The notes under the pieces are model-generated. The model did no database searches and was not told where the DNA came from. It worked only from the letters and a program-made list of their open reading frames with translations. A DNA stretch of 41,199 bases from an uncultured Eubacterium sp. (GTDB lineage Bacteria > Bacillota > Clostridia > Lachnospirales > Lachnospiraceae). The DNA is taken from assembly GCA_949959185.1 (NCBI GenBank), contig CATLIX010000029.1:1-41199 (forward strand). The letters are read 5' to 3'. A program made the translations under genes and the position numbers. This document shows, one piece after another, positions 19,392 through 34,723 of this stretch (its first letter is position 1; the number at the start of each line of letters is the position of its first letter).

Positions 19392-19410
19392 GAACAAGAA
19401 TAAGAGAACG

Positions 19411-19527: not shown

Positions 19528-19547
19528 GGAAGATATGTGTAAATTCT

Positions 19548-19574
19548 GAGACGCTCTCCGGGCGTCTCTTTTTT
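19548..19574 (+). terminator. Riboswitch-controlled terminator before thiC
   Basis: GAGACGC (19548-19554) pairs with GCGTCTC (19562-19568), followed by six T. Position right after the TPP aptamer and before thiC points to regulated attenuation. Confidence 0.88.
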
Positions 19575-19618
19575 ATGCACAGCCCCGTGTAAGGAAATTT
19601 TGAATCAAGGAGGAAAAT

Positions 19619-20923
19619 ATGAGAGAATTTGCAACACAGATGGAAGCGGCCCGCAGGGGAATTGCAACCGAAGAATTGAAAAAGGTGGCTGAAAAAGAGC
19701 GGATGACCGCGGAAGAACTGATGCCTCTGGTGGCAGAGGGAAAAGTGGTAATCTGCGCCAACAGGAATCACACCTGTATTGACCCGGAAGGGGTAGGCTC
19801 CATGCTGCGCACCAAAATAAATGTAAATCTGGGCGTGTCACGGGACTGCAAGGACTATAATGTGGAAATGGAAAAAGTGATGGAGGCTGTACATATGGGC
19901 GCCCATGCCATTATGGATTTGTCTTCTCACGGCGATACCATTCCCTTCCGCAGAAAGCTCACTTCCGAATGTCCGGCTATGATTGGCACAGTACCGGTAT
20001 ACGATTCCGTCATTCACTATCAGCGCGACCTGGCCACTCTTACCGCAAAGGATTTTGTGGATGTGGTGAGGCTCCATGCGGAAGACGGGGTGGATTTTGT
20101 AACCCTGCACTGCGGAATTACCAGAAAGACCATTGAACAGATTAAGAAGCACAAACGGAAAATGAACATAGTATCCCGCGGCGGTTCCCTGGTATTTGCA
20201 TGGATGTGCATGACGGGAGAGGAAAATCCCTTTTATGAATACTACGATGAAATCCTGGATATCTGCCGGGAATATGACGTGACCATTTCTCTGGGAGACG
20301 CCTGCCGTCCCGGCTGCCTGGCAGACGGTTCCGACGTGTGCCAGATTGAGGAACTGGTACGTCTGGGAGAACTGACGAAACGGGCCTGGGAAAAAGACGT
20401 ACAGGTTATGGTGGAAGGGCCCGGACATATGCCCATGGACCAGATTGCAGCCAATATGAAAATGCAGCAGACGATTTGTATGGGAGCTCCTTTCTATGTG
20501 CTGGGGCCCATTGTGACCGATATTGCACCGGGTTACGACCATATCACCTCTGCCATCGGCGGAGCCATTGCGGCTCAGAACGGGGCGGCTTTTCTGTGCT
20601 ATGTGACGCCTGCGGAACATCTGGCCCTGCCCAACGTGGAAGATGTAAAACAGGGGATTATGGCCTCTAAAATTGCAGCCCATGCGGCAGATATTGCAAA
20701 AGGCGTCCGGGGAGCCAGAGAGATGGATGACCGGATGGCAGACGCCCGCAGAGCTCTGGACTGGGAGACTCAGTGGGCATGTGCCATGGACCCGGAAACT
20801 GCCCGGAAAATCCGGGAAGACCGGAAACCGGAACATGACGATACCTGCTCCATGTGCGGAAAATTCTGTGCCGTGCGGAGTATGAATAAAGCTCTGTCCG
20901 GAGAATACATTGATATTTTGTAA
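19619..20923 (+). CDS. thiC: Phosphomethylpyrimidine synthase ThiC
   Basis: 434 aa radical-SAM enzyme converting aminoimidazole ribotide into HMP phosphate, the pyrimidine half of thiamine. Typical ThiC blocks include [15 protein letters not shown], the [14 protein letters not shown] region and [11 protein letters not shown]. The C-terminal cluster motif CxxCxxxxC is C410, C413, C417 ([11 protein letters not shown] context). The length fits the short bacterial form without the long N-terminal extension. AAGGAGG lies 7 nt before the ATG. First gene of the TPP-controlled operon; thiW follows after 20 nt. Confidence 0.97.
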
Positions 20924-20943
20924 CATCACAGAGGAGGACGCAA

Positions 20944-21474
20944 ATGAAAGCAAACGTGAATGTAAATATAAAGAAACTGGCGGCGGCAGGAATGATGACA
21001 GCACTGGGCGTCTGCCTCTCTGCTTTTTCCATTCCCGTGGGCGCTTCCAGATGTTTTCCCATTCAGCACCTCCTGAACGTACTGGCAGGAATTTTTCTGG
21101 GGCCGGCCTATGGGGTGGGATTTACGTTTTCCACAGCCCTGATACGGAATCTTCTGGGCACCGGAAGCCTGCTGGCCTTTCCGGGCAGCATGGTGGGCGC
21201 ATTTCTTGGGGCGTTATTGTACCGGCAGACCGGAAAAATCTGGACTGCCTTTGCCGGAGAAATCCTGGGTACCGGGATTCTGGGAGGAATGCTCTGTTAT
21301 CCGGTGGCCGCATTTCTTCTTGGAAATAAAGAAGCCGCAGTGTTTACCTATGTGCTTCCGTTTCTGATTAGTACGGTAGGAGGATGTATGCTGGCGGCGG
21401 TTCTTCTGGGAGCTCTGTACAAATCCGGAGCCTTGCGGTACCTGCAGGGGATGCTGAAGGAAGTGCAGCCGTGA
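20944..21474 (+). CDS. thiW: ThiW, predicted thiazole-specific ECF transporter S component
   Basis: 176 aa with five to six membrane helices. The family-typical stretch GASRCFPIQHLLNVLAGI is near residue 33, with the GTGSLLAFPGSMVGAFLGA block after it. ThiW is predicted to bind hydroxyethylthiazole and use a shared ECF energising module, whose genes are not in this window. GAGGAGG precedes the ATG. Position between thiC and thiM supports thiazole import feeding the ThiM kinase. Confidence 0.92.
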   Translation: MKANVNVNIKKLAAAGMMTALGVCLSAFSIPVGASRCFPIQHLLNVLAGIFLGPAYGVGFTFSTALIRNLLGTGSLLAFPGSMVGAFLGALLYRQTGKIWTAFAGEILGTGILGGMLCYPVAAFLLGNKEAAVFTYVLPFLISTVGGCMLAAVLLGALYKSGALRYLQGMLKEVQP

Positions 21475-21500
21475 AACCCGGACAGGAGGAAAACAGATTC

Positions 21501-22340
21501 ATGGATGGAAAGCAGATAGCGGCGATATTCCAAAATATCAGACGGGGAAAATATCTGATACATATGATACCCAATACGGTTTCCGCCCCTTTGTGCGCCG
21601 ACGGTCTTGCGGCTCTGGGGGCCAGGCCTCTGATGGCAGTGGCGCCGGAAGAAATGGAAGAAATTGTCATGCAGGCCGATGGATGTGTGGTGAATCTGGG
21701 CCAGATGAACCGGGAGAAGCTGGCGGCGGCAGAGACTGCGCTGAAAACTGCGGCAAAAGAGGAGAAACCCACGGTGGTGGATCCGGTGGGCTGCGGAGCC
21801 TCTGTGTTCCGGCAGCAGGCAGTCCGGAAGCTGTTTCAGATTCCATGGAAAGGAATTGTCAAAGGCAACCGTTCAGAATTGTACAGTATTCAGCAGGGAA
21901 AGCTGACCGGAGAGGGTATAGATTCCCTGGAGAACCGACGTCTGACCGGAGATATCCGGCCCGGCAGTGTCTATCTGGCAACGGGAGAACCCGACTGCAT
22001 TTTATGGAAAACGGGCAGGATGGAAATCCCCCATAAGGGCAGGCTCCGTCAGAATATGGTGGGAAGCGGTTGCCTGGCGGGAGCAGTGGCCGGGGCCTGC
22101 AATACGGCAGTCCGCGGAATGAGAAAGGAACAGAATCAGGATGCCGCCGGGAGCGGGGAAGACAACCTGCTGCAGGAAATGATACTGGCGGCTGCAGCCG
22201 CTTCCCTCGGCATGGCATTTGCACTGGAATATGCGGGGCGGGCGGCAGGCTACGGAGCAGCCAGAACTGCCCTGTTAGACGGGATTGGAATGTTGTCGGA
22301 TTCCTGCTTTTCGGACTGGCTGAAAAGGAGAGATTTATGA
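21501..22340 (+). CDS. thiM: Hydroxyethylthiazole kinase ThiM
   Basis: 279 aa ribokinase-fold enzyme phosphorylating salvaged hydroxyethylthiazole. Seen: HMIPNTVSAPLCADGLAALGA at the N-terminus (usually CITNxVxxNxxANxxLAxGASP, here diverged), VVDPVGCGAS, IKGNRSEL-like VKGNRSELY, and GSGC with C191 at the catalytic loop. The start at 21501 follows AGGAGG; the frame is open further upstream inside thiW but has no support. Its stop overlaps the thiE start (ATGA). The N-terminal motif is less canonical than usual, but operon context is decisive. Confidence 0.93.
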   Translation: MDGKQIAAIFQNIRRGKYLIHMIPNTVSAPLCADGLAALGARPLMAVAPEEMEEIVMQADGCVVNLGQMNREKLAAAETALKTAAKEEKPTVVDPVGCGASVFRQQAVRKLFQIPWKGIVKGNRSELYSIQQGKLTGEGIDSLENRRLTGDIRPGSVYLATGEPDCILWKTGRMEIPHKGRLRQNMVGSGCLAGAVAGACNTAVRGMRKEQNQDAAGSGEDNLLQEMILAAAAASLGMAFALEYAGRAAGYGAARTALLDGIGMLSDSCFSDWLKRRDL

Positions 22341-22957
22341 AAAAATGGCTGTATCTGATTGCAGATTTTTCTTATGGAGAAGATAAAATAAAAGCGGCGC
22401 TGGAAGCCGGTGTGGATTATATCCAGCTCAGGGAGAAGCATATTTCCTCGGCGGAATATCTTCTGCGGGCAAAACGGCTGGCAGAATGGACGGCCTGTTA
22501 TCATACCAGGCTGATTATCAACGACAGAATGGACATTGCAGTATTAAGCGGCGCCCAGGGGGTTCACCTGGGGCAGGAGGATATTCCGGTCAGAGATGCA
22601 AGACGTTTTCTGGGAGCAGATAAAATCATCGGAGCCACTGCCAAAACAGGAGAACAGGCGAAACGGGCGCTGGAAGAAGGGGCGGACTACCTGGGAAGCG
22701 GCGCCTGGTTTCCTACGGATACCAAGAAAGACGCAGTTCCCATTTCAGAGGAGACTTACCGGGAAATTTTAAAAGCAGCTCCCATTCCCAATGTGGCTGT
22801 GGGCGGAATTACTCCGGAAAACTGCAGAAAGCCTCTGGATTGCGGAGCCCATGGACTGGCAATTTCCGCAGGAATTCTGAAATCTGACAATCCCGGAGCA
22901 GAGGTCAGAAAGATACGGAAGCTGCTGGAAGAAAGGGATGAAAAGCAGGAGGAATGA
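22337..22957 (+). CDS. thiE: Thiamine phosphate synthase ThiE
   Basis: 206 aa TIM-barrel enzyme joining HMP-PP and thiazole phosphate. Motifs: VDYIQLREKHIS (pyrophosphate binding), LIINDRMDIA, GAQGVHLGQEDIP, IIGATAKTGEQA (a serine in SxH is often present here; Ala/Thr in this copy), YLGSGAWFPTDTKKDA and VAVGGITPEN. GGAGAG lies before the ATG, which overlaps the thiM stop. thiD begins 1 nt after its stop codon, so translation of thiM, thiE and thiD is tightly linked. Confidence 0.95.
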   Translation: MKKWLYLIADFSYGEDKIKAALEAGVDYIQLREKHISSAEYLLRAKRLAEWTACYHTRLIINDRMDIAVLSGAQGVHLGQEDIPVRDARRFLGADKIIGATAKTGEQAKRALEEGADYLGSGAWFPTDTKKDAVPISEETYREILKAAPIPNVAVGGITPENCRKPLDCGAHGLAISAGILKSDNPGAEVRKIRKLLEERDEKQEE

Positions 22958-22958
22958 T

Positions 22959-23738
22959 ATGAAGGTTGTGCTTACCATAGCGGGAAGCGACTGCAGCGGC
23001 GGCGCCGGCATACAGGCGGATTTGAAAACCATAGCGGCCCACGGGCTGTACGGAGAAAGTGTCATCACTGCGCTGACGGCGCAGAATACCATGGGGGTAG
23101 CGGATATTGTACCGGTATCCCCTGCATTTTTGGAAAAGCAGCTGGAATGTGTCTTTACGGATATCGTGCCGGATGCGGTAAAAATCGGTATGGTGACGGG
23201 AATACCCCAGATGGAAGTGATTCGGAACTGTCTGCTTCGGTATCAGGCCAGACATGTGGTGATGGACACGGTGATGGTATCCACCAGCGGAAAACACCTG
23301 ATGGAGCCGGAAGCACTGACGTATTATAAAGAAAAACTGCTCCCGCTGGCGGAACTTTATACTCCGAATCTGCCGGAAGCAGAGGTTTTGTTAAAAAGAA
23401 CCATAAAAACAAAAGAAGAAAGGGTTGCGGCGGCAAGGGAGTTTGCGTTACAATACAAGGGTATTGTTTACTTAAAAGGCGGTCACGATGAGAATTCCGC
23501 AGATGACCTGCTGTTCTGGCAGGGGCATCCCATATGGATTTCCGGAAAACACATTGACAGCGGAAATACCCATGGAACCGGCTGTACCCTGTCTTCCGCC
23601 ATAGCCTGCGGGCTGGCTCAGGAACTGAGTCCGGAAGAGAGCGTGAGAAACGCGAAGGAGTATCTGACCGGGGCGATTCTGGACGGGATGAATCTGGGAA
23701 AGGGAAACGGGCCGCTGAACCATATGTACAAAATATAG
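22959..23738 (+). CDS. thiD: Hydroxymethylpyrimidine/phosphomethylpyrimidine kinase ThiD
   Basis: 259 aa ribokinase-fold kinase adding the second phosphate to HMP phosphate. It starts MKVVLTIAGSDCSGGAGIQA and shows SVITALTAQNTMGV, DAVKIGMV, VVMDTVMVSTSG, TPNLPEAE and the catalytic GTGCTLSSAIA block. The start at 22959 follows AGGAGG. With ThiC, ThiW, ThiM and ThiE it completes an HMP-de-novo plus thiazole-salvage route; thiG/thiS/thiH for thiazole synthesis are not in this operon. Confidence 0.96.
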   Translation: MKVVLTIAGSDCSGGAGIQADLKTIAAHGLYGESVITALTAQNTMGVADIVPVSPAFLEKQLECVFTDIVPDAVKIGMVTGIPQMEVIRNCLLRYQARHVVMDTVMVSTSGKHLMEPEALTYYKEKLLPLAELYTPNLPEAEVLLKRTIKTKEERVAAAREFALQYKGIVYLKGGHDENSADDLLFWQGHPIWISGKHIDSGNTHGTGCTLSSAIACGLAQELSPEESVRNAKEYLTGAILDGMNLGKGNGPLNHMYKI

Positions 23739-23757
23739 CGTAAAGGGGATTCTGCAG

Positions 23758-24657
23758 ATGAAGAAAAAAATACTTTTGCTTGGATTAGGGATATGTCTGT
23801 TGTTTGCTGCCTGTTCAGGAAAGAAGACAGCAGAGAAAGGGAATCAGCCCGATACAGAGCAGGAAGAGAAAAAGGAAGATACTTCCGAAAAAACAGAACG
23901 TAAGGATTCTGACAGCAAAGAGGAAAAAGAGAACAGTTCCGCCGGTGCGGAAGAACCGGGAAAGGAACTGAGCCAGCCGCCGGAGGTGACATTTACCGAC
24001 TATTCTCAGGATATTACCGATGAAGGAAGCGGCGCCATTCTGCTGTCTGTGATGGAGAACAGTCCGGTGGTTTCCATACCGGAAAATGAGGCGGCCGCTG
24101 AGAAGATAAATATGGCTTTTGAACAGAAACATACGGAAACACAGAAATATATTGAGGAAGATACGGAGCTGGCCCGCAGCGCTTATCAGGATCTTTCCGA
24201 TGAGGAGAAAGAGAGCTGGACAGGCTACGGCTATGGCTCTGTCTATAAAATGATGTATGCTTCCACCAGAATTCTGAGTATAGAAGCCGAAAGTTATCAG
24301 TGGCAGGGAACCCCTCATCCCAACACCTGGACTTTTTCCTACTGTTTTGACGCCACTACGGGAAAACTGCTGTCTCTGGCGGATATTTTCACCGATAAGG
24401 CAAAGGCCGGAGAAATTGTGGAAAAGCATATTCTTAAGACTATTACCGAAGATCCCTACAAGGAGTATCTGATGGAGGATTATGAGAGTTATGTCTCCGA
24501 TGTTCTTACGGAAGATGTGTTTTATCTGAATGAAAAAGGCCTGGTGGTTATCTGCAATCCTTATCTGGTCACCGCCTATGCCGGAGGTAAGATTGAAATA
24601 GAGGTGCCTTACCAGGAACTGGAAGAAGTGATGAACGAACTGTATGTTTTGAAATAA
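23758..24657 (+). CDS. DUF3298-type lipoprotein (RsiV-like extracellular domain)
   Basis: 299 aa. The signal peptide ends in the lipobox LFAAC (Cys at about residue 20), so it should be lipid-anchored outside the membrane. A highly charged Lys/Glu/Asp linker (about 22-75) follows, then a DUF4163/DUF3298-like domain (about 85-298). That domain has TPHPNTWTFSYCFDATTGKLLSL, typical of this fold, also found in the RsiV anti-sigma factor. Here there is no anti-sigma part, and the function is unknown. It starts 19 nt after thiD with no terminator between, so it may be read from the thi promoter at some level. Confidence 0.8.
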   Translation: MKKKILLLGLGICLLFAACSGKKTAEKGNQPDTEQEEKKEDTSEKTERKDSDSKEEKENSSAGAEEPGKELSQPPEVTFTDYSQDITDEGSGAILLSVMENSPVVSIPENEAAAEKINMAFEQKHTETQKYIEEDTELARSAYQDLSDEEKESWTGYGYGSVYKMMYASTRILSIEAESYQWQGTPHPNTWTFSYCFDATTGKLLSLADIFTDKAKAGEIVEKHILKTITEDPYKEYLMEDYESYVSDVLTEDVFYLNEKGLVVICNPYLVTAYAGGKIEIEVPYQELEEVMNELYVLK

Positions 24658-24690
24658 TGAACGGTATGTACGGAAAGAAAGAGGCAGCCA

Positions 24691-25722
24691 TTGAAAAAAT
24701 CAGCTTTGACAACACTTTGTTATATAGAACAGGACGATTGCTATCTGATGCTCCATCGGGTGAAAAAACAGGTGGATGTGAACAAAGATAAATGGATTGG
24801 AATCGGCGGACATTTCGAAGAAGGGGAAAGTCCGGAGGAGTGTCTGTTCCGGGAAGTAAAGGAAGAGACCGGTCTTATACTGACCGGCTTTTCTTTTCGG
24901 GGAATCGTGACCTTTTCGGCGGCAGGCTGGCCCACCGAGTATATGTGTCTTTATACAGCGGACAGCTTTGAGGGAATCCTGACCGACTGCGACGAAGGGA
25001 CGCTGGAATGGGTAGCGAAAAAAGATCTTATGTCTCTGAGTCTGTGGGAGGGGGATAAAATCTTTTTCCGTCTTCTTATGGAAAATATTCCCTTTTTCTC
25101 TCTGAAATTAAGTTATGACGGGGACCGTCTGACAGAAGCGGTGCTGAACGGAAAGCCCATGGAGCTTCTGGAGCTGCGCCGGGAGGACGGAAGCAGAACG
25201 GGAGTGATACGGGAACGCTCCCTGGTTCACGAACTGGGGGATTTGCACGGAACGTCCCATGTGTGGATTGTACGCCCCACAGAGACAGGAAGTTTTGAAG
25301 TCCTGCTGCAGAAACGAAGTTCCGGAAAAGATTCCTATCCGGGCTGTTATGACATCTCCTCCGCAGGACATGTACCTGCCGGAGGTAATTACCTGGACTC
25401 AGCGTTGCGGGAACTGGAGGAGGAGCTGGGAATCCGGGCATGTCCGGAGGATTTGCAGGAGCTCTTTCTTCACAGAGGTTACGCAGAATCAGAATTTTAT
25501 GGAAAACCCTTTAAAAATGCCGAAGTCACCATGGTGTATCTCTATAGCTGCCCGGTGAATCTGTCGGATTTAACGCTTCAGAAAGAAGAAGTGGAAGCAG
25601 TATGCTGGATGGAATATGAAACATTACTGGCAAAGGTACGGAAAGAAGCTGCACAGGGGAAAGCGGAGAATTACTGTATTTTCCTGGATGAACTGGAAAA
25701 GCTGGGAGAATATCTGAGATAA
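24691..25722 (+). CDS. Double-Nudix hydrolase fusion
   Basis: 343 aa with two Nudix domains. The first (about 1-130) is MutT/8-oxo-dGTPase-like with a perfect Nudix box, GHFEEGESPEECLFREV then KEETGL. The second (about 165-335) is of the IPP-isomerase/YfcD type: GHVPAGGNYLDSALREL then EEELGI, where the usual Glu after the first six residues is Gly. The first half probably cleans oxidised nucleotides; the second domain's substrate is unknown. The start is TTG at 24691, after an AGAGG site. The 3' end overlaps the convergent glycosylase gene by 52 nt. Confidence 0.85.
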   Translation: MKKSALTTLCYIEQDDCYLMLHRVKKQVDVNKDKWIGIGGHFEEGESPEECLFREVKEETGLILTGFSFRGIVTFSAAGWPTEYMCLYTADSFEGILTDCDEGTLEWVAKKDLMSLSLWEGDKIFFRLLMENIPFFSLKLSYDGDRLTEAVLNGKPMELLELRREDGSRTGVIRERSLVHELGDLHGTSHVWIVRPTETGSFEVLLQKRSSGKDSYPGCYDISSAGHVPAGGNYLDSALRELEEELGIRACPEDLQELFLHRGYAESEFYGKPFKNAEVTMVYLYSCPVNLSDLTLQKEEVEAVCWMEYETLLAKVRKEAAQGKAENYCIFLDELEKLGEYLR

Positions 25723-26252
25723 CTTCCGATTTCCTGCCTCCAGCAGTCCGTCAGACGTTCCAGGCTCCAGGCAGCGTTGGCGGGACTGGTGGAAGGAAGT
25801 TTGCGGATGGAACACAGCGATTCTGCCTCAGGTTTGCTGCCGGCATATGTGGAAAGGAGCAGAGGACGGGTGTATTTCTGAAAGAGTTCGCAGGCTTTTG
25901 CTCCGTTTCCGAAGACAGCGGTGACGGAGGTCTGCTCCAGCAGACCGGGGATATCGGCGGGAACCACATTTCGGATGCTGCTGTCAGAAGAACCGATGAT
26001 TTCACAGCTCTGAATTACGTCCCAGACAGCGATTTGATGGCTCAGCAGCAGGTGCTTTTTCTCCGGAATGGTGATGGGAACCGGTTCCTGTGTAACTGCA
26101 GCCAGAACTTTCCAGAAGCGGTTTTGGGGATGGCCGTAATAAAAATGCTGCGCTCTGGATTTGACGGAAGGGAAAGTGCCCAGAATCAGGATTCTGGAGT
26201 TACTGTCATATACAGGTTCAAATTCGTGAGTGTGCTGATGGTATTCTGCCAT
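25671..26252 (-). CDS. DNA-deoxyinosine glycosylase (UDG superfamily)
   Basis: 193 aa. The motif GTFPSVKSRA, followed by FYYGHPQNRFW, is the hallmark of this uracil-DNA-glycosylase-like group, which removes hypoxanthine (deaminated adenine) from DNA. AVWDVIQSCEI and LPSTSPANAAW supply the other conserved blocks. The ATG at 26252 follows AAAGGAA; an ATG nine codons upstream has no site. The last ~17 residues (Ser/Arg-rich) are antisense to the end of the Nudix gene and extend past the normal family end, as if the original stop had been lost. Confidence 0.88.
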   Translation of the reverse strand: MAEYHQHTHEFEPVYDSNSRILILGTFPSVKSRAQHFYYGHPQNRFWKVLAAVTQEPVPITIPEKKHLLLSHQIAVWDVIQSCEIIGSSDSSIRNVVPADIPGLLEQTSVTAVFGNGAKACELFQKYTRPLLLSTYAGSKPEAESLCSIRKLPSTSPANAAWSLERLTDCWRQEIGSYLRYSPSFSSSSRKIQ

Positions 26253-26384
26253 GGGAAATTCCTTTCTGTAGTGCTGCATGTAGTTTCATGTTTCCGGTGA
26301 TTCGGGTGTCGGAAAAGTTCTTCTGGTACCCTGATTATTATAAAGGATTTTTCCCGGAATTTCCAGCAAAATTATAATGGAGGG

Positions 26385-26526
26385 GAACAGTTCAGCCTGC
26401 GGCTTCCCTGTTACAGAATCCGGCCCATGTAAAGTTTGCTTTCAGCAAAGGGCCGGATTCTCTGGCTGTATTCACACATTTTTACGGACTTTGCAGCAGG
26501 TGCAAAGTCCTGGGCTGAACTGTTAC
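26385..26526. mobile_element. IS66-type MITE, copy 2 (142 nt, in the araC-type leader)
   Basis: The ends GAACAGTTCAGCC (26385-26397) and GGCTGAACTGTTAC (26513-26526) are inverted repeats. ATGGAGGG flanks both sides (26377-26384 and 26528-26535), a perfect 8-bp duplication. Inside are two strong hairpins, AGAATCCGGCCC/GGGCCGGATTCT and GGACTTTGCA/TGCAAAGTCC with loop GCAGG. No open frame. Confidence 0.8.
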
Positions 26527-26542
26527 GATGGAGGGACAATAT

Positions 26543-27430
26543 ATGGAAAACGCATATGTATTGCAGCTGACGGGAGCGAAATTTAAAGATTTGTATCTGT
26601 GCTTTTGCGGAATGTCTGACTGCGAGCCCAACCACAGCTTCGGCCCGGCGGTCCGGCCAAATTATATTATCCACTATATTCTGTGGGGAAAGGGCATATA
26701 CCAGGTGGGAGACCATAAGTATGAGCTGCAGCAGGGCCAGGGTTTTCTGATTGAGCCGGAAGCGGTGACTTTTTATAAAGCGGATGAGAAGAATCCCTGG
26801 TCTTATCTGTGGATTGGATTTGCCGGAGAACAGGCGGAGGAGTATCTGCAGGATTTGGGGCTGAACAGCAATCAGCTGGTGTTTCAGAGTGAACAGGGGA
26901 AGGATTTGAAGCGGATTGTGGCAAAAATGTTAAGCTACCATTCCGCCTCCGGAACAGACCAGTATTACCTCCAGAGTCTTCTGTATGAATTTTTTGCAGT
27001 GCTGACCAAAGACGCCAGACTTGCAGATGTGACAAAAGAGACGAAAGAAAGTATTTATGTGCAGAAATCCATCAATTTTATCCGGAATAATTATTCTGCC
27101 GGAATCGGGGTACAGGATATTGCGGATCATGTCTGTGTGAGCCGCAGTTATCTCTACAAGCTGTTTGAGGAAACCCTTCAGATGTCTCCCAAAGATTTTC
27201 TGACTCAGTTTCAGATTTCCAGATCCAAAGAACTCCTTGTGGTGACAGATTTGTCCATCGAAGGAGTTGCCATGTCCTGCGGGTACGGCGACGCTCTGGT
27301 GTATTCCAAAACATTTAAAAAGATTATGGGTATGCCGCCCAGCGTATACCGCAAAACCCACCGCAGGGAAGTTCGGGAGCACCTGGAATCTCAGGAACAG
27401 AAACTGGCGAAGCTGCTGGAAACATTTTGA
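26543..27430 (+). CDS. AraC-family regulator of the alpha-galactoside operon
   Basis: 295 aa. The N-terminal cupin-like AraC-binding domain (about 5-150) has IIHYILWGKGIYQVG and QGFLIEPEAVTFYKAD. Two C-terminal helix-turn-helix motifs (about 185-280) contain GIGVQDIADHVCVSRSYLYK and SIEGVAMSCGYGDALVYSKTFKK. This is the MsmR/RafR-like layout of sugar-responsive activators. The start at 26543 follows GGAGGG; that ribosome site is the right-hand copy of the mobile element's target duplication. It lies 126 nt upstream of the transporter gene, which it probably activates in response to melibiose or raffinose-type sugars. Confidence 0.9.
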   Translation: MENAYVLQLTGAKFKDLYLCFCGMSDCEPNHSFGPAVRPNYIIHYILWGKGIYQVGDHKYELQQGQGFLIEPEAVTFYKADEKNPWSYLWIGFAGEQAEEYLQDLGLNSNQLVFQSEQGKDLKRIVAKMLSYHSASGTDQYYLQSLLYEFFAVLTKDARLADVTKETKESIYVQKSINFIRNNYSAGIGVQDIADHVCVSRSYLYKLFEETLQMSPKDFLTQFQISRSKELLVVTDLSIEGVAMSCGYGDALVYSKTFKKIMGMPPSVYRKTHRREVREHLESQEQKLAKLLETF

Positions 27431-27471
27431 CTGATTTTCAAAACAAAACTTTCTAACGGGCCAGGGAAAAA

Positions 27472-27504
27472 TATACTATAATGAAATCATCTTAAGAAGA
27501 TGAT
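27472..27504 (+). promoter_or_regulatory. Candidate activator-dependent promoter and palindrome before the GPH transporter
   Basis: TATAAT (27477-27482) overlaps TATACT (27472-27477), but neither has a good -35 box, as expected for an AraC-activated promoter. Right after it, ATCATCTT (27486-27493) and AAGATGAT (27497-27504) form an inverted repeat that could be an operator or a transcript hairpin. The role is inferred from position only. Confidence 0.45.
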
Positions 27505-27556
27505 GTGCACAGCATTTTCAAGGGGAAATTCATTAAAATTACATTGGAGGTAAATT

Positions 27557-28966
27557 ATGAATATGCAGAGTGAAAATGTTGGAAAGACACAGTATAAACA
27601 TGTGTCTGCAAGGGAAAAGTATTGTTTCGGGATCGGTGCAATTGGAAAAGATGCAATCTGTAACTTGGTTGGAGCATTCCTGATGCTGTATTTTACGGAT
27701 ACCCTGTATCTGGCCCCGGCTTTTGTAGGCGTACTGTTCTTTGTGGCAAGAATATGGGATGCGGTAAACGACCCGGTCATGGGCATGATTGTGGATAATA
27801 CCCGTACGAAATACGGAAAATTCCGTATCTGGCTGATTATCGGAACACTGATAAACTCCGTCGTATTTGTACTTCTGTTCCACAGCTTTAACTTAAAGGG
27901 AACCGCACTGTATGTATACGTTTCCGTTATGTATATTCTGTATGGCATGACATATACCATCATGGACGTACCTTACTGGTCCTGGCTTCCGAACCTGACC
28001 AACGATCCTCGCGAACGTGAAAAGATTTCCGTTATCCCAAGATTTTTTGCAAGCCTTGCAGGATTCTCCGTAGCAACATTTGGACTGTATATTATCTTCG
28101 GTCTGAATGAGATGGCGGGAGAGACCAACAAATATGCAGAGACCGGTTATACCCTGTTTGCAGTTATCATCGCAGTTATTTTTATTATCGCTATCGGAAT
28201 TACCGTATTTAATGTAAAAGAAGAATCCACGCTGAATGCAAAGGTTCAGAAAACCAACTTAAAGCAGGCCCTTACCGTAATTGTGAAAAATGATCAGCTT
28301 GTGGCTTTTATCGGACTGCTGCTTACCTTTAACCTCTGTACGCAGATTGCAAAGAGCTTTGCGGTTTACTATTTCAAAAACGTGTGCGGCAACGAATATC
28401 TGTACTCCATTTTCGGAATGGCAATTATTGCAGAAATGCTGGGACTGGTATGCTTCCCCAGAATTGCCGCAAAAATGGGAAGGGAAAAAGTATACTTCTG
28501 TGCCTGCGTTATGCCGATTATCGGGCTGATTCTTCTTGGAGCTTCCGGTTACATTGCTCCCACCAATGCGGTGCTGGTAGTTATCTGCTGTGCCATCCTG
28601 TTTTTCGGCTCCGGCCTGTCACTGGGGGTAACCACCTGCTGTATGGCGGATGTTATCGACTATGGCGAAGTGAAATTCGGCGTCCGCAATGAAAGCGTTA
28701 CCTGTTCCGCCCAGACATTCCTGATGAAAGCAGCGATGGCTGCAGCAGGAGGCCTGACCGGTGTGGGACTTGAAATCGTGGGATATGAGGCAAAGGCAGA
28801 AGTACAGTCAGCAGGAACTGTTTTTGGGATTCGTATTCTGATGATTGTGATTCCCATCATTCTGGCAGCTCTGAGTTATTTCATCTACAGAAAATTCTAC
28901 ACTCTGAAAGGGGATAAAATGGAAGAAGTGGCTCTGAAACTGCAGGAAATGCACAAAAATGACTAA
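27557..28966 (+). CDS. GPH-family sugar:cation symporter (MelB-like)
   Basis: 469 aa with about twelve membrane helices. The family signatures are present: FGIGAIGKDAICNLVGAFLM in helix I, ARIWDAVNDPVMGMIVDNTRTKYGKFR in the first loop, and the TYTIMDVPYWSWLPNLT region. The loop between helices 6 and 7 is short and charged. It imports glycosides with Na+ or H+ across the inner membrane. Location between an AraC regulator and a GH36 alpha-galactosidase points to melibiose or related alpha-galactosides, which enter unmodified and are cut inside. TTGGAGG precedes the ATG at good spacing. Confidence 0.92.
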   Translation: MNMQSENVGKTQYKHVSAREKYCFGIGAIGKDAICNLVGAFLMLYFTDTLYLAPAFVGVLFFVARIWDAVNDPVMGMIVDNTRTKYGKFRIWLIIGTLINSVVFVLLFHSFNLKGTALYVYVSVMYILYGMTYTIMDVPYWSWLPNLTNDPREREKISVIPRFFASLAGFSVATFGLYIIFGLNEMAGETNKYAETGYTLFAVIIAVIFIIAIGITVFNVKEESTLNAKVQKTNLKQALTVIVKNDQLVAFIGLLLTFNLCTQIAKSFAVYYFKNVCGNEYLYSIFGMAIIAEMLGLVCFPRIAAKMGREKVYFCACVMPIIGLILLGASGYIAPTNAVLVVICCAILFFGSGLSLGVTTCCMADVIDYGEVKFGVRNESVTCSAQTFLMKAAMAAAGGLTGVGLEIVGYEAKAEVQSAGTVFGIRILMIVIPIILAALSYFIYRKFYTLKGDKMEEVALKLQEMHKND

Positions 28967-29003
28967 AGGCAGAAGATTTGCCATAACATCAGGGAGGTAG
29001 GCA

Positions 29004-31241
29004 ATGAGCATTATTTATCATGAAGAAACAAAGGTATTTCATTTACATAACGGCGAAATCAGTTATATTATGATGATTCTTCCCAACGGGCAGATGGGGC
29101 ACCTCTATTTCGGGAAAAAAATTCATGACAGGGAAAATTTCGGGGATTTGCTGGAAACAGCGCCCCGCCCCATGTCCTCCTGTACCTTTGAGGGAAATAA
29201 AGCATTTTCCCTGGAACATATCAAACAGGAGCTGCCCGTCTATGGAACCGGAGATTACAGAAGCCCGGCTGTGGAGGTAATCCAGGAAAACGGCAGCAGG
29301 ATTTCAGATTTTCAGTATCATTCCCATCATGTGGAAGCCGGAAAGCCGGAGCTTCCGGGGCTTCCGGCCACCTATGCGGAAGATTCCAAAGAGGCGGAAA
29401 CCCTTGTGCTGAATCTTTATGATTCTGTGACCGGAATCCGGGCGGAAATGTTTTATACCATTTTCGCTGGAAGGCCGGTGCTGGCCAGAAGTGTCCGTTA
29501 CATCAACAACGGAAACAGGCCGGTACAGCTTGGGAGAGCCATGAGCCTTTGCCTGGACCTTCCGGACTGTGCGTACGACTGGGTACAGTTTTCCGGCGCA
29601 TGGGCAAGGGAACGGCATGTGAAAACGCGCCGTCTTACCATGGGGGTGCAGTCTGTGGGCAGTATGCGGGGCAATTCTTCCCATGAGCACAATCCGTTCC
29701 TGATTTTAAAGCGTCCGGATACGGGGGAACAGCAGGGAGAGGCCATAGGGTTCAGTTTTGTATACAGCGGCAATTTCCTGATGCAGGCGGAGGTGGACGC
29801 CCATGACAATACCAGGGTGCTGGTGGGCATTCATCCCGATACCTTTGCATGGCATCTGGAGCCGGAAGAAAGTTTCCAGACCCCGGAGGCAGTGATGGTA
29901 TATACGGATTCCGGTTTGAACCATATGAGCCAGACGTTCCATCAGTTATTTCAGAAAAGACTGGCAAGGGGTTACTGGCGTGACCGTGTCCGTCCCATCT
30001 TAATCAATAACTGGGAAGCTACGTATTTTGATTTTACCGAAGATAAGCTGGTACATATTGCAAAAAAGGCAAAAGAGTGCGGCGTGGAGCTGTTTGTACT
30101 GGACGACGGATGGTTCGGCGCCAGAAGCAATGATTTTGCGGGCCTTGGCGACTGGGAGGCCAACAGAGAGCGCCTGGCCAACGGAATTACCGGGCTGGCA
30201 GAGCGGATGGAGCAGATTGGCATGAAGTTCGGCCTGTGGTTTGAGCCGGAAATGGTGAACAAAGATTCCGACTTATACCGGAGCCATCCCGACTGGATTC
30301 TGCAGGTTCCCGGCAGAGCCAATACCCATGGCAGAAACCAGTATGTGCTGGATTTCTCCAGAAAAGAAGTGGTGGACCGTATTTTTGAAATGATGGCAAA
30401 AATCCTGCGGGAAGCAAAAGTATCCTATATTAAATGGGATATGAACCGGAGCATTACGGAATGTTTCAGTCAGGCTTACAGCCCAGAGCGGCAGGGCGAG
30501 ATTTTCCATCGTTATATTCTGGGAGTATACGATTTGTATGACCGTCTGACCAGGGAATTTCCGGAGGTGTTGTTTGAGTCCTGCGCCAGCGGCGGCGGCC
30601 GGTTTGACCCAGGCATTCTCTATTATGCGCCCCAGGGCTGGGCCAGCGACAATTCCGATGCAGTGGAGCGTATGAAAATTCAGTATGGTACTTCCATGTG
30701 TTATCCTGTCAGCAGTATGGGCAGCCATGTGTCAGTGATACCAAACCATCAGGTGTTCCGCAATACGCCGCTGCACACCAGAGCAAATGTGGCATACTTC
30801 GGAACCTTCGGCTATGAGCTGGATTTGAATAAACTGACGGAAGAAGAAATTGAAGAAGTGAAAGAGCAGATTGCTTTTATGAAAGAATACCGCAGCCTCC
30901 TGCAGTTCGGCACCTTCTACCGGCTGAAAAGCCCCTTTGAGGGAAATGAAATGGCCTGGATGGCAGTCAGCGAGGATAAAAAAACAGCAGTGGTGGGCTG
31001 GTACCGGGTGCTGAATGTGGTAAATGACCGTTTTACACGGGTAAAACTGCAGGGTCTGAATGAAAATTTCTGTTATGAAAACAGCCGGGACGGTTCCAGA
31101 GTTTACGGAGATGAGCTGATGAATATGGGACTGAATACTTCAGACGCCACAGCAGGGCAGACGCCGGACGATCAGGCGCCCTGTACGGATTTTGAGTCGA
31201 GGATTTATATTCTGAAAGCAGTGGGACAGGTGGAAGCATGA
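29004..31241 (+). CDS. Alpha-galactosidase, GH36
   Basis: 745 aa, the usual size for bacterial GH36. The N-terminal beta-supersandwich domain (about 1-330) is followed by the TIM barrel (about 335-650), with LDDGWFGAR, GLWFEPEMV, the nucleophile D479 in YIKWDMNR, FESCASGGGRFD, and acid/base D549 in WASDNSDAVERM. A C-terminal beta domain closes the protein. It has no signal peptide, so it acts in the cytoplasm on imported melibiose or raffinose-family sugars, releasing galactose. AGGGAGG lies before the ATG. Its end overlaps the next start by 4 nt. Confidence 0.96.
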   Translation: MSIIYHEETKVFHLHNGEISYIMMILPNGQMGHLYFGKKIHDRENFGDLLETAPRPMSSCTFEGNKAFSLEHIKQELPVYGTGDYRSPAVEVIQENGSRISDFQYHSHHVEAGKPELPGLPATYAEDSKEAETLVLNLYDSVTGIRAEMFYTIFAGRPVLARSVRYINNGNRPVQLGRAMSLCLDLPDCAYDWVQFSGAWARERHVKTRRLTMGVQSVGSMRGNSSHEHNPFLILKRPDTGEQQGEAIGFSFVYSGNFLMQAEVDAHDNTRVLVGIHPDTFAWHLEPEESFQTPEAVMVYTDSGLNHMSQTFHQLFQKRLARGYWRDRVRPILINNWEATYFDFTEDKLVHIAKKAKECGVELFVLDDGWFGARSNDFAGLGDWEANRERLANGITGLAERMEQIGMKFGLWFEPEMVNKDSDLYRSHPDWILQVPGRANTHGRNQYVLDFSRKEVVDRIFEMMAKILREAKVSYIKWDMNRSITECFSQAYSPERQGEIFHRYILGVYDLYDRLTREFPEVLFESCASGGGRFDPGILYYAPQGWASDNSDAVERMKIQYGTSMCYPVSSMGSHVSVIPNHQVFRNTPLHTRANVAYFGTFGYELDLNKLTEEEIEEVKEQIAFMKEYRSLLQFGTFYRLKSPFEGNEMAWMAVSEDKKTAVVGWYRVLNVVNDRFTRVKLQGLNENFCYENSRDGSRVYGDELMNMGLNTSDATAGQTPDDQAPCTDFESRIYILKAVGQVEA

Positions 31242-31879
31242 GTGGAAAAGTGAAAAGATTTTGTTTTATGTTATTCGGAATTCTGCTAATCGGAATTTGC
31301 GTGGCAGCTTACCGGATGTCCGGATTCGGGGTGGACCCCTTTACCTGCATGAATCTGGGCATCAGCAAATTTATTCATATGCAGTTTGGAAACTGGCAGT
31401 TAATTGTGAATGTGGTTTTGCTGGTTCTGGTGTTTTTTACGGTCCGTCACTGCATCGGATTGGGAACCGTGGTGAATATGGTCTGTGTGGGCTATATCGC
31501 AGATTTCCTCTGCTGGGTCATGGAAGATGTGGTTCACCTGGAAATGAACTGGGGGCTTAAGATTCTGATGCTTGCCATCGGTCTGCTGTTCGCATCTTCA
31601 GGAGCGGCCATGTACATGGTGGCAGATATGGGAATTGCTCCCTATGACAGTGTGGCCTTTATCATTGAGAAATTCACTAATGGGAAAATCCCCTTTAAAT
31701 ATGGGCGAATCTGTTCCGACGTGGTGGTAATGCTGGTAGGTGTGGGATTCTGCGCGGCCTCCGGCAATTCCATCTGGATGGTGGTGGGACTGGGCACCCT
31801 GCTGAACTCCATGTTTAACGGACCGTTGATACAGTTTTTCCGCGGAAAATTTGAAAAAAGGCTTCCGAAAGAAAATTAA
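31238..31879 (+). CDS. YczE/YyaS-like integral membrane protein
   Basis: 213 aa, about five to six membrane helices, with the family blocks RMSGFGVDPFTCMNLGIS near residue 26 and ADMGIAPYDSVAFII near 130. The two halves look like internal repeats of the same G-x-D/A-P-(F/Y) motif, as in YitT-related proteins. Function unknown; homologues are often placed beside transport or regulatory genes. ATG overlaps the alpha-galactosidase stop (ATGA), so it is translated with that operon, though a direct part in sugar use is not established. A terminator follows. Confidence 0.85.
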   Translation: MSGKVKRFCFMLFGILLIGICVAAYRMSGFGVDPFTCMNLGISKFIHMQFGNWQLIVNVVLLVLVFFTVRHCIGLGTVVNMVCVGYIADFLCWVMEDVVHLEMNWGLKILMLAIGLLFASSGAAMYMVADMGIAPYDSVAFIIEKFTNGKIPFKYGRICSDVVVMLVGVGFCAASGNSIWMVVGLGTLLNSMFNGPLIQFFRGKFEKRLPKEN

Positions 31880-31894
31880 CTGACAGGTAATGTT

Positions 31895-31924
31895 CCCCCG
31901 CAGGGTGTTCTGCGGGGGAGTTTT
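31895..31924 (+). terminator. Terminator of the alpha-galactoside operon
   Basis: CCCCCGCA (31895-31902) pairs with TGCGGGGG (31911-31918) around an 8-nt loop, followed by AGTTTT. The T-run is short but the stem is very strong. Confidence 0.75.
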
Positions 31925-31966
31925 GCATGTAACAGGGCAACTTATCTGAACAGACACTGTTTTCAG

Positions 31967-32000
31967 GTTACTGGAACACCCGCAGGGTGTGAACAGTAAT
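31967..32000. repeat. 34-nt palindromic repeat, copy 2
   Basis: GTTACTG (31967-31973) and CAGTAAT (31994-32000) enclose ACACCC/GGGTGT around CGCA. It differs from the copy at 2987 at only about three positions. Just upstream, 31921-31941 is a reverse-complement match (20 of 21) to the inner left part of the mobile repeat at 33392, so this spot holds scrambled repeat fragments. Confidence 0.7.
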
Positions 32001-32101
32001 GTTTTCAGCAGCAGAACCGAAAACTTCCATGTAAATCTGGTTGTAAACAGCATATCATAGCTGTTATAATATGAAATAAAAAGGATGGGAGAATAATCAA
32101 T

Positions 32102-32521
32102 ATGATTGATTTACTGGATAAAAGCAACTGCCCCGCCATTGAAGAAATAAGCGAGTATGTGAAAAACCCTGTTTTTATGGAATTCTGTTCCGAAATCAGG
32201 AACACATATAACTGCAGGGAAAAAACAGAGTACAGTTCATGCAGCTGGAAAAAGGGATGGAATCTTAAATTTAAAAAAGCCGGAAAAACATTGTGCACCA
32301 TATATCCGGGGGAATATTATTTTACGGTTCTGATTGTGGTTGGCAAAAAAGAAAAAGAGTCTGTGGAGGCAATCCTGCCGGAATGTACTCCGGAACTGTC
32401 TGATATATACCATCGGACACAGGAAGGAAACGGGCAGAGATGGTTAATGATTGAGCTGGAAGACAGGAACGGTCTGTATCAGGATGTTCTGCGTCTGATT
32501 CAGATTTGCGGAAAGAAGTAA
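32102..32521 (+). CDS. DUF3788 family protein
   Basis: 139 aa, cytoplasmic. The pattern of CSWKKGWNLKFKKAGKTLCTIYP and the YYFTVLIVVGKKE strand matches DUF3788 proteins, which are common in Clostridia and sometimes called YdhG/YoaQ-like. Biochemical role unknown. AGGATGGGAG precedes the ATG at suitable distance. It stands alone, facing the SUKH gene, and has repeats on its left side. Its end is followed by 147 nt without a gene, containing only a weak GC hairpin (32623-32651) without T-run. Confidence 0.8.
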   Translation: MIDLLDKSNCPAIEEISEYVKNPVFMEFCSEIRNTYNCREKTEYSSCSWKKGWNLKFKKAGKTLCTIYPGEYYFTVLIVVGKKEKESVEAILPECTPELSDIYHRTQEGNGQRWLMIELEDRNGLYQDVLRLIQICGKK

Positions 32522-32668
32522 AAGAATATAATTATTATTTTCAATTTATCCTGACAAAGTATGGAACGGATGTTGAGAAGAATTTGCCGGATAAAAAATC
32601 AATGATTTTTGAAAGTTTGCATGGTGCCGGTTCCGTTTCCCGGTCGGCACCGCAATATGGTTGCCGAA

Positions 32669-33268
32669 TTAATCTTCCATATCCTCTTCTGATATAAAAT
32701 CATACCCGCGCTCCATCAGCATTTCCAGATATTCCTCAAAGCTGTCGGCAATGATTTCAATTTCATCCGGGTCATGGAGATACCGGGCAATCTGCCCCTT
32801 TTTTCCTTTGGAAGACGGAGAGAAATCAATAAATAACTGGGAGGTGCCGCCATTATTCATACAGTCGGAAAAATGCAGCCAGCACATCTTTTCAGAATCG
32901 TCCGTGATTTTCTCGTCAATGGAAACCTGGTCGAATTCCCGGTCGATATATTCTTCTATCCAGTCAGAATCATCTTTGTCCATCATCTGTTCTGCAGATA
33001 ACAGATAGTAAGGGTATTCTTCCAGGTCAGAGCCCAGAAAGAAAAAAGCGACGGTCTTTTCCCCATATGTTCTCCAGTATGTTCCGTCTGCAAACTCCAG
33101 CAGATGTACCAGACTGTCCGGAATATCCGGGTATAAAGCCCGCAGTTTTTCCAGATGTTCTCTGCTGACCCCATGTACTGTGTGCTCAAAGTCATCCCAT
33201 TGTTCCTGTCCGTGATTGTCATAATATGCCTTTTTGAGGCCTTCCGTATATTTTTGTGCGATATCCAT
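32669..33268 (-). CDS. SMI1/KNR4 (SUKH) family protein
   Basis: 199 aa, acidic. The SUKH-type core begins at about residue 33 with REHLEKLRALYPDIPDSLVHLLEFADG and continues through TVAFFFLGSDLEEYPYYLLSAE. Many bacterial SUKH proteins are immunity proteins that neutralise contact-dependent or polymorphic toxins, but others have different roles. No toxin gene is adjacent, so it would be an orphan. GGGAGG lies before the ATG on the minus strand. The surrounding repeats suggest an accessory patch. Confidence 0.8.
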   Translation of the reverse strand: MDIAQKYTEGLKKAYYDNHGQEQWDDFEHTVHGVSREHLEKLRALYPDIPDSLVHLLEFADGTYWRTYGEKTVAFFFLGSDLEEYPYYLLSAEQMMDKDDSDWIEEYIDREFDQVSIDEKITDDSEKMCWLHFSDCMNNGGTSQLFIDFSPSSKGKKGQIARYLHDPDEIEIIADSFEEYLEMLMERGYDFISEEDMED

Positions 33269-33391
33269 GGTTTCCTCCCTGTTCCGTATGCTTTTTATTC
33301 GTTCCGGCAGACTATAACTTATATTATACAGGGAATTCTCTCTGAAAACAAGTAACTTGCAAATACCGCCGAATCCCTTTATAATTTAATC

Positions 33392-33524
33392 GTAACAGTT
33401 CAGACAAGCTGCCCTGTTACATGCAAAAATCCATTTAAAATTGCTTCGCAATGGGATTTTTGCTCTCCTGAATCATATTCTCACGGTCAGCGCAGCAGGT
33501 GCGCAGACCTGTCTGAACTGTTAC
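33392..33524. mobile_element. IS66-type MITE, copy 3 (133 nt, intact)
   Basis: The 14-bp ends GTAACAGTTCAGAC (33392-33405) and GTCTGAACTGTTAC (33511-33524) are perfect inverted repeats. ATTTAATC flanks both sides (33384-33391 and 33525-33532), a perfect 8-bp duplication. Internal hairpins are GCAAAAATCC/GGATTTTTGC-like and GGTCAGCGCA/TGCGCAGACC with loop GCAGG. GTAA ends plus an 8-bp duplication are features of the IS66 family. No coding capacity. Confidence 0.85.
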
Positions 33525-33595
33525 ATTTAATCGTTACTGTTTGCAAATATGTCGTGAACGTAACCATGCTGCACAGAAATGGGCATTCTGATTAT

Positions 33596-33714
33596 CAGGT
33601 AATTGCGAAACTCAATAATTGTACCAGTTTCATGTGCAATTCGAAAAATATTTCATAGAAAGTGTAGAAATTGTACATGAAATTTTGATAATTTAATAGT
33701 TTCGCAATTGCCTG
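33596..33714. mobile_element. AT-rich palindromic element (119 nt), second MITE-like family
   Basis: The ends CAGGTAATTGCGAAACT (33596-33612) and AGTTTCGCAATTGCCTG (33698-33714) are inverted repeats with one mismatch. The interior is nearly palindromic too (TTTCATGTGCAATT against AATTGTACATGAAA). Flanks TTCTGATTAT and TTCTGCTTAC match at 8 of 10 positions, possibly a worn target duplication. A partial copy in reverse orientation starts at 41097. Confidence 0.7.
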
Positions 33715-33742
33715 TTCTGCTTACAACAGAAGGGAGAAATAC

Positions 33743-34417
33743 ATGACAGGGAACAGAGGAAAACGCCTGAACCGGTATGTGGAGGATTATGTGGTATTTG
33801 ATCTGGAGACCACAGGAGTCCGGCCGGGGCAGGACAGGATTATAGAAATATCGGCGTTAAAGGTCCGGGGCCATCAGGTGGAAGATCAGTATACGACGCT
33901 GGTGAATCCGGAAATGAGGATTCCCAGGGCTGCCACAGCAGTCAACGGAATTACCGATGAAATGGTAAAGGACGCGCCGGAGATGGAAGAAGCAGTCCGG
34001 GGCTTTCTGGATTTCGTGGGAAATGATATCCTGGTGGGCCATAATATACATACTTTTGATATGATTTTTATCTGTGATGCTGCAATGGAAACGCTGGGGG
34101 CAGATATTGGAAATGATTATATTGATACTCTGTATTTGGCCAGAAAATGCCTGCCGCAGCTTTCTCACTGCAGACTGACGGATGTGTCCGCATATTTCCG
34201 GATTAATACAGACGGAGCCCACCGGGCCCTAAATGACTGTGCGATGAATCAGAAATGCTATGAGGAACTGGGAAAGATTCTGGTAGAGATGCAGCAGAAT
34301 CAGCCGGAGATTCTCTGCCCCAGGTGCGGGAGTGAAATGGTAAAGCGCAGAGGAAAATACGGGGAATTTTACGGATGCAGCAATTATCCCGGCTGCCGGG
34401 GAACCAGAAAAATTTAA
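33743..34417 (+). CDS. DEDDh 3'-5' exonuclease with C-terminal topoisomerase-type zinc ribbon
   Basis: 224 aa. Residues 15-175 form a DnaQ/PolC-epsilon-type exonuclease: FDLETTGV (Exo I), the NGITDEMV block, HNIHTFDMIF (Exo II) and HRALNDC (Exo III, DEDDh His and Asp). Residues 190-224 are a C4 zinc ribbon, CPRCGSEM and then GCSNYPGC, as found at the ends of DNA topoisomerases. Probably acts on single-stranded or frayed DNA 3' ends. It lies upstream of topB, with a small gene between, all in the same direction. Confidence 0.88.
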   Translation: MTGNRGKRLNRYVEDYVVFDLETTGVRPGQDRIIEISALKVRGHQVEDQYTTLVNPEMRIPRAATAVNGITDEMVKDAPEMEEAVRGFLDFVGNDILVGHNIHTFDMIFICDAAMETLGADIGNDYIDTLYLARKCLPQLSHCRLTDVSAYFRINTDGAHRALNDCAMNQKCYEELGKILVEMQQNQPEILCPRCGSEMVKRRGKYGEFYGCSNYPGCRGTRKI

Positions 34418-34495
34418 AGAAACGCGGATGAAATCATTATTTTCCCAGGCAGGAATGATAAAAATGTGAGAGGACAGAAGGGATGGGAGGAAGTT

Positions 34496-34723
34496 ATGTT
34501 TGGACGAAAGCGGAAAAATCACGGGGCGGTTCAGCCTTATGATTCCTCAGCACAGATACCGGTGATTCGCGCCAGTATCTGCACCGGGGAGCAGGTGGCC
34601 GGATTTAAAGACAGAACATCCGGGAAATTTACGGAGGCCATGCTGATTCGGGGCCAGCAGGATTTGCAGGAATTCTGCACCCGGTATGAGGTAAATCAGG
34701 AAGATATTAAGAAAGAGTGGTAA
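34496..34723 (+). CDS. Small conserved protein between exonuclease and topB
   Basis: 75 aa. It starts MFGRKRKNHG and has a central VIRASICTGEQVAGFKD stretch, a predicted beta strand followed by a turn. No catalytic motif, signal peptide or membrane helix. I recognise similar short proteins from Lachnospiraceae but know no tested function. The ATG at 34496 follows GGGAGG; a GTG-type frame opens 30 nt earlier without a site. It ends 4 nt before the topB ATG, indicating one transcript and perhaps translational coupling. Confidence 0.75.
   Translation: MFGRKRKNHGAVQPYDSSAQIPVIRASICTGEQVAGFKDRTSGKFTEAMLIRGQQDLQEFCTRYEVNQEDIKKEW

Follow-up and report, generated by a model that had tools for sequence, protein, structure and literature searches.

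The stretch of DNA considered here (the window, 41,199 nucleotides from an uncultured Eubacterium sp. of the Lachnospiraceae) contains short sequences with similar inverted ends and hairpin interiors, which raises the question of what these sequences are, which transposase has moved them and why they keep a fold. The initial annotation read them as non-autonomous miniature transposable elements (MITEs) mobilised by an IS66 transposase, with a fold under selection, and knew of no description of such a family. MITEs are common, and structured bacterial ones such as ERIC, RUP and Correia/NEMIS are short, palindromic, intergenic and present in high copy number, and often fold as RNA. These differ from the window elements in their ends, hosts and transposases. 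We suggest from sequence comparisons that the window elements are very probably MITEs with ends of the ISBst12 type, and that the fold of one form, subtype C, resembles the Clostridiales-1 RNA and is kept for its own sake.

An A-type mini-element of 133 bp with two hairpins lies at 33392-33524 on the plus strand. Its 12-bp ends, GTAACAGTTCAG and CTGAACTGTTAC, are perfect, and the 8-bp target duplication reported for it holds at all 8 positions, with ATTTAATC on the left (33384-33391) and on the right (33525-33532). The B-type mini-element on the same strand is 143 bp long (26384-26526), with one change in its left end GGAACAGTTCAG and the right end CTGAACTGTTAC. This copy had been placed at 26385-26526 between perfect repeats. 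The element is real; the perfect repeat ATGGAGGG, however, requires a start at GAACAG and an end at TTACG, which is one base off register. In the family register the element reads GGAACAG...CTGTTAC, the T of GTAACAG being changed to G, and its flanks AATGGAGG (26376-26383) and GATGGAGG (26527-26534) agree at 7 of 8 positions. The predicted open reading frame 26528-27430 starts inside the right flank. Both long copies run, as described before, from the left end through CCTGTTAC, a first hairpin, a linker and a second hairpin with loop GCAGG to the right end. By eye, GTAACAGGGCAACTTATCTGAACAG at 31929-31953 (plus strand) compares with the A-type end and appears to be a decayed A-type piece.

The third copy, 86 bp at 19248-19333, has the flanks GAATATGA (19240-19247) and AAATATAA (19334-19341), alike at 6 of 8 positions as previously noted. 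It had been taken for a shorter version of the long copies. A truncated A/B element is ruled out, since the copy groups with subtype C and is found by model R1; it is half of a C-type element, with hairpin 1 only, and lies on the minus strand according to the same model (59.4 bits against 23.2 for the plus strand). Its first plus-strand bases provide, within its own GTAACAG, the stop codon TAA of the open reading frame 18313-19251, which by the look of its sequence is methyl-accepting-chemotaxis-like; the same arrangement at the end of a gene is seen for several C-type copies elsewhere. The copy is absent from the end of the orthologous gene in the sister genome G009. G061, a second strain of the host species, carries the entire stretch 18900-34500 at 100% identity. 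The fold of each of the three window copies beats all 200 of its own dinucleotide shuffles (z -6.5, -8.4 and -5.6).

Two neighbouring features may be mentioned here. Directly downstream of the 19248 copy, at 19427-19542, a candidate TPP riboswitch scores 46.6 bits (Rfam cut-off 54.3, E 3.9e-8). The stretch 31959-32008 holds a 34-bp palindromic element, GTTACTGGAACACCCG...CAGTAAT, with GTTTTCAG on both flanks (8/8), and its start resembles the GTTACTG of an IS66-type element in G025:C15. The corresponding pattern GTTACYGGAACACCCG...CAGTAAY has 13 matches in G000 and 12 in G061, and most listed copies are preceded by GATGCC. We do not regard this 34-bp family as a proved MITE, as the window site at 31967 is the only one with an 8/8 flank among the 16 matches listed, which include repeats of the same site.

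The host genome, 114 contigs totalling 3.40 Mb, is rich in the ends of the window elements. With at most one mismatch, GTAACAGTTCAG ends occur 147 times (84 + 63) against 8 times (4 + 4) for the reversed pattern. The window alone has 12 matches to CTGAACTGTTAC at up to two mismatches, where 1.9 are expected and none of 100 shuffles reaches 12. A search of 61 genomes, among them that of the window, found the exact end in 35. Within the genus the counts are 67 in the host, 124 in G011, 63 in G025 and 48 in G023; one other genus of the family has 37 (G030), and matched genomes outside the family have one or two. Some copies carry GTAACTATTCAGAG instead of GTAACAGTTCAG at their ends. With the best 100 candidates scored per genome, copies recognised by the C model turn up in 22 of the genus's 29 genomes, 30 of them in the host and 32 in G061.

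For the target duplications, ends in the collected loci were paired by the ends alone (at most one mismatch each, nearest partner), which gave 68 pairs. The flanks are alike at 7-8 of 8 positions in 42 of them, 28 at 8/8 and 14 at 7/8; any of eight other offsets yields at most 2, and permutation of the right flanks yields a mean of 1.0 and a maximum of 4. Three of the 28 perfect pairs repeat an insertion that the host shares with strain G061. A and T make up most of the duplicated words (176 of 224 letters). Named GTDB records give duplications in 23 of 36 pairs (permuted mean 0.8, maximum 4) and in 8 of 14 pairs when one MAG that supplies 22 rows is removed. We also compared 125 joined flank pairs with the collected loci, and one clear empty site was found: TTTAATGT occurs once in G024, against TTTAATAT-element-TTTAATGT in G000 (C43:12256-12328). 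The elements thus have the features of MITEs, with a length of 25-229 bp in the host that is too short for a transposase, 12-bp inverted ends, a register-specific target duplication of fixed length, many copies and an empty site in a relative. The annotation is supported in that these elements are non-autonomous, have ends of the IS66 type and are flanked by 8-bp duplications, and many copies are indeed present in the host genome and in relatives. No title on such elements in these hosts was found in the open-licence literature, where the end words led to unrelated organisms only.

We grouped 131 collected elements with BLAST, in a collection that is partly ranked by flank match. Subtype AB has 35 members, with full copies of 133-147 bp, and subtype C has 29, with full copies of 163-180 bp. 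The 23 members of subtype D (67-701 bp) all come from G023 and are near-perfect palindromes with centre-deleted forms; among them (L118-L132) are palindromes that measure 700/701 bp and likewise end in GTAACAG, together with shorter derivatives that lack the centre. The other 44 elements are short or unplaced. Forms of 25-50 bp also exist, some with 8/8 flanks; C12:64820 and C65:9182, for example, read as an A or B left end up to the inner CCTGTTAC. Deletion between repeated CTGTTAC would be the simple reading of these forms. One copy is nested (C19:16427). Head-to-tail tandems of C copies occur twofold at G000:C2:23538-23886 and threefold at G061:C1:448177-448699, a difference in number that may be an assembly effect because the host assembly is fragmented. 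A related two-hairpin sequence without GTAAC ends at L284:3870-4003 (R1, 41 bits) perhaps represents a further end type.

Which transposase, then, recognises these ends? The annotation had suggested a comparison with resident IS66 elements. The host has two IS66 loci, C89 and C31, which look three-gene by their open reading frames and end in GTAAGCGCC, with GTAACCGCC at one C31 end. These ends do not match, being unlike GTAACAGTTCAG beyond the first 4-5 bases, and we reject the resident three-gene IS66 as source. The excerpt of PMC11946415 gives GTAAGCG as the classical IS66 end motif, and the window elements do not combine such ends with several genes. A search of 12 genomes for the transposase family found IS66 transposases in 5; G011 was without an IS66 match at E 0.001, and its mini-elements have possibly outlived their transposase.

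Better candidates are found in sister species. In G025 a weak IS66 relative directly adjoins GTAACAGTTCAG, and its transposase (L199) served as query for the genus, with matches in 6 of 29 genomes and none in the host or in G061. Three 1813-bp copies in G026:C1 end in GTAACTGTTCAG and have 8/8 duplications (CTATTTTG, GATTTCAT and AATAACTA). Their transposase frame is open and free of stops in all three, and the 487-residue protein of one copy scores 162.5 bits with PF03050 and 261 bits with NF033517, above the cut-off of 180. A 1397-bp element in G018:C3 has a broken transposase, exact GTAACAGTTCAG at both ends and GGGAAATTG on both flanks, i.e. 9 bp rather than 8. G025:C153 is 936 bp long with its transposase in pieces, GTAACAGTTCAG on the left, one mismatch on the right and an 8/8 duplication AATTTTTT. 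G015 and G021 contain remnants beside an exact end. At G025:C15 and G025:C79, with the ends GTTACTGTTCAG and GTAACTGTTCAG, no flanking duplication was found.

Elements of the ISBst12 type have one transposase gene, the ends GTAAC[A/T]GTTCAG and an 8-bp target duplication. For one of this group, ISDge4, the excerpt of PMC12898284 gives GTGACTACTCAGCA/GTAACTGCTCAGCA as ends, a single gene and an 8-bp repeat, and reports that it transposes. Because the insertion sequences of the sister species and ISDge4 match in ends, gene number and repeat, we call the ends of the window elements ISBst12-type. The window elements share with this group, as far as the excerpt describes it, the GTAACTGCTCAGCA-like ends and the 8-bp direct repeat, and their full-length relatives share the single transposase gene; the GTAAC-type ends go with 8-bp duplications in several of the IS66-type elements seen, two others having no duplication and one having 9 bp. 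In contrast to the group, the window elements are gene-free with structured interiors. At 86-143 bp and without a transposase gene they are derivatives and not members of it. The annotation's reference to IS66 is supported in that matching ends do occur in this superfamily; the elements that carry them are of the one-gene ISBst12 type and reside in sister species. The first 24 bases of G025:C153 agree with B-type left ends at 22 positions (a G011 copy) and at 17 with the window copy at its best, and A, C and D left ends agree with any insertion sequence end at 16-18 of 24. Only in some B copies, therefore, does the likeness to the insertion sequences clearly extend past the 12-bp end.

The fold was analysed most closely for the C type, with a consensus of 18 divergent copies, hand-chosen from the collection, and 47 pairs. 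Both sides have changed in 24 of these pairs. Pairing holds in 94.5% of the cells; shuffling lowers this share to 81.0% and sliding to 25-37%, and none of 500 shuffles reaches any of five measures. In 17 of the 18 copies the given strand folds better than the opposite one. For the arms of hairpin 1, we used 44 of 48 copies of less than 85% identity, four being left out because their anchors could not be located or their arms lacked the length needed. The strand-symmetric alignment has 612 Watson-Crick pairs among 699 (87.6%), 36 GT, 18 AC and 33 others, GT and AC differing with p 0.02; arms dealt between copies are paired at 62.9%, at most 67.4%. The model-fitted counts are 69 GT and 31 AC, and we trust the strand-symmetric arm count more. 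Pairs that are predicted for both strands have 16 GT and 10 AC. The apical GAATCATGCTTGCATGAATGAGC, the linker and the ATGAGC/GCGAAT motif of hairpin 2 are retained while the stems vary; the apical likeness is built into the named records, because these were found by a 22-base apical pattern, and is not built into the copies from the G genomes. This pattern matches at least 119 stretches in the GTDB collection, and the 80 matches listed bear Lachnospiraceae names, names of genera usually placed there or nearby, or unplaced names.

We consider selection on the fold well shown for the C subtype, as judged from covariation, and the fold more likely acts as a single strand than as a duplex. For A and B the earlier remark that differing stems remain paired is true; in an alignment of 21 chosen copies the difference is one between 2 A and 19 B copies. 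Double changes are seen here in 7 of the 26 pairs, in most cases owing to the two A copies, and the stems are nearly perfect. The case for selection in the two long window copies, as argued in the annotation, therefore comes down to one A/B split. Most C-type copies (52 of 66) are free of heuristic open reading frames. As a test for the RNA strand, gene orientation gave no bias in the direction expected for the C type (11 same-strand, 24 both opposite, 15 mixed) and no support for the given strand among canonical RF01699 copies (9 same, 7 opposite).

The fold of the C subtype resembles an RNA that is already listed, Clostridiales-1 (Rfam RF01699), which qualifies the statement that no description was known. 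An Rfam search of the whole window at the gathering threshold returned tRNA only, an e-value search around 19248 returned the TPP riboswitch only, with no RF01699 at E up to 1, and four A and B copies (L133, L019, L042 and L045) had no match to RF01699. In e-value mode all four C loci of a first set match at full length on the expected strand (25.4-36.4 bits, cut-off 48). In a second set 7 of 10 loci do so (26.4-32.5 bits) and 3 have no match at E up to 1. Four host loci with 174-176-bp C copies or a half gave none at this threshold either, and these 174-176-bp copies differ in hairpin 2. Across the three sets, 11 of 18 loci thus match below the cut-off. The host's own 164-bp C copy at C2:22471 matches with 26.6 bits (E 0.08). 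At gathering, 1 of 16 loci reaches the cut-off (48.8 bits). The matches seen end within a few bases of the ends of the C elements, L101 excepted. MicroRNA matches on an 85-bp hairpin were taken as chance likeness.

Of 200 genomes sampled from the family, 111 have RF01699, 86 of them over the cut-off; none of 14 control genomes has it. Many family genomes have at least 13 scored copies. Across the order 36 of 196 genomes have it, 23 of the 36 belonging to other families. The host genome is negative at the stricter setting of these family and order surveys. We then sampled the thirty top canonical loci (L417-L446), one per genome. Most begin with TGATGCCAGGGTCAAAAGG or similar, and 24 of the 30 have a right end like GACCCCAACATC (at most 4 changes) after the end of the model. 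An identical 7-bp repeat in the register GATG...CATC is present in 13 of these 24, against 1.1 (maximum 5) after permutation. The arms of the GCTTGC loop have 22 GT and 2 AC in the 30 loci, a ratio that may be inflated because the loci were picked by a model scoring GU above AC. Two loci that are canonical by score, L433 and L446, have a C-like apical stretch around GCTTGC.

Those full C elements that match agree with the Clostridiales-1 model along its entire length and on the same strand, in most cases under the cut-off, and share with it the GCTTGC loop and the ATGAGC/GCGAAT motif. They differ in that canonical Clostridiales-1 has GATG...CATC ends and 7-bp repeats, whereas the C elements have GTAACAG ends and 8-bp repeats. 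Rfam types Clostridiales-1 as an sRNA gene. The open-licence literature, which leaves preprints outside and is in part represented by excerpts, yielded no text calling it a mobile element. A full-length element with GATG...GGGTCAAAAGG ends was not found, the pattern being present in 4 of 6 genomes. The one transposase-sized inverted pair seen, G154:C1:2817002-2818582, was rejected: it contains by look no transposase and has unlike flanks, and its 496-residue open reading frame resembles by look a MATE-type transporter. As the C fold is RF01699-like and canonical copies have other ends, mini-transposons with two or more kinds of ends seem to enclose this orphan RNA fold. One form of the short elements, C, appears to carry the Clostridiales-1 fold, so that the RNA seems to be what lies within mobile elements.

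How do other explanations fare? The stems could be complementary through template switching between palindrome arms, and the elements would then be plain foldback MITEs whose fold is not selected. The 700/701-bp palindromes of G023 and their centre-deleted versions fit such palindrome correction, and so do the nearly perfect stems of A and B. Yet C-type copies keep a similar apical GAATCATGCTTGCATGAATGAGC and a similar linker although the intervening stems change (the named records being pre-selected by the apical pattern), and symmetric copying does not predict the excess of GT over AC, which is 36:18 in the C type and 22:2 in canonical loci. We consider template switching unlikely as the source of the fold. 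It is very unlikely, in our view, that a classical three-gene IS66 residing in the host moves the elements. GTAA is common to both, GTAAC is found at one C31 end, and copies are at hand on C89 and C31; their ends GTAAGCGCC or GTAACCGCC, however, depart from GTAACAGTTCAG after 4-5 bases, and no IS66 match was found in G011 with its 124 ends.

Clostridiales-1 might further be an ordinary small-RNA gene whose match to the C type is a chance likeness of hairpins. It was rated as probably RNA and not cis-regulatory, with Clostridiales and human gut as taxa, in the excerpt of Weinberg 2010 (PMC2864571), which agrees with a gene, as does the fact that all C-type matches but one lie below the Rfam cut-off and several C copies have no match. 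The matches, however, span the full model, lie on the expected strand and stop near the element ends (all seen but L101). The canonical form reaches at least 13 copies per genome in many genomes, 13 of 24 loci have 7-bp repeats in register, and L433 and L446 are canonical yet C-like around GCTTGC. We therefore regard this explanation as highly improbable and prefer to see the elements as MITEs with ISBst12-type ends and a fold that is kept.

We suggest the following course of events. An ISBst12-type transposase acting in trans would have moved the elements, as is suggested by their ends and duplications. Insertion would occur at AT-rich 8-bp sites, and the elements would be retained at the ends of genes and between them. 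The copies of the host look stranded, since a search there found no such transposase, and internal deletion would then shorten the elements to as little as 25-50 bp. The fold is probably kept for its own sake and not for one transposase, because mini-elements that have quite other ends and 7-bp duplications contain it as well. The single-stranded fold is somewhat more probably RNA than single-stranded DNA. It is guesswork that a host factor could bind the GCTTGC loop and the ATGAGC/GCGAAT motif and help the element to persist. Tentatively, and with rather less than even confidence, we propose that Clostridiales-1 is a portable fold carried in mini-transposons of at least two transposases (one of the ISBst12 type with GTAACAG ends and another with GATG ends), which would be selected across the order for an effect on the host or on replication and not for recognition by one transposase. 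The fold would be a kind of structured 'licence' shared by parasites.

In summary, a conserved and covarying fold with fixed loops appears to recur in mini-elements whose ends differ, and this fold coincides with an RNA family that was listed in 2010 without a role. The role of Clostridiales-1 would become testable as a question on mobile elements. Such a reading would explain why Clostridiales-1 is scattered and present in multiple copies, and it is a caution against taking it for a single-gene sRNA. The gut Lachnospiraceae may thus offer a simple system for the question why some transposons carry selected folds.
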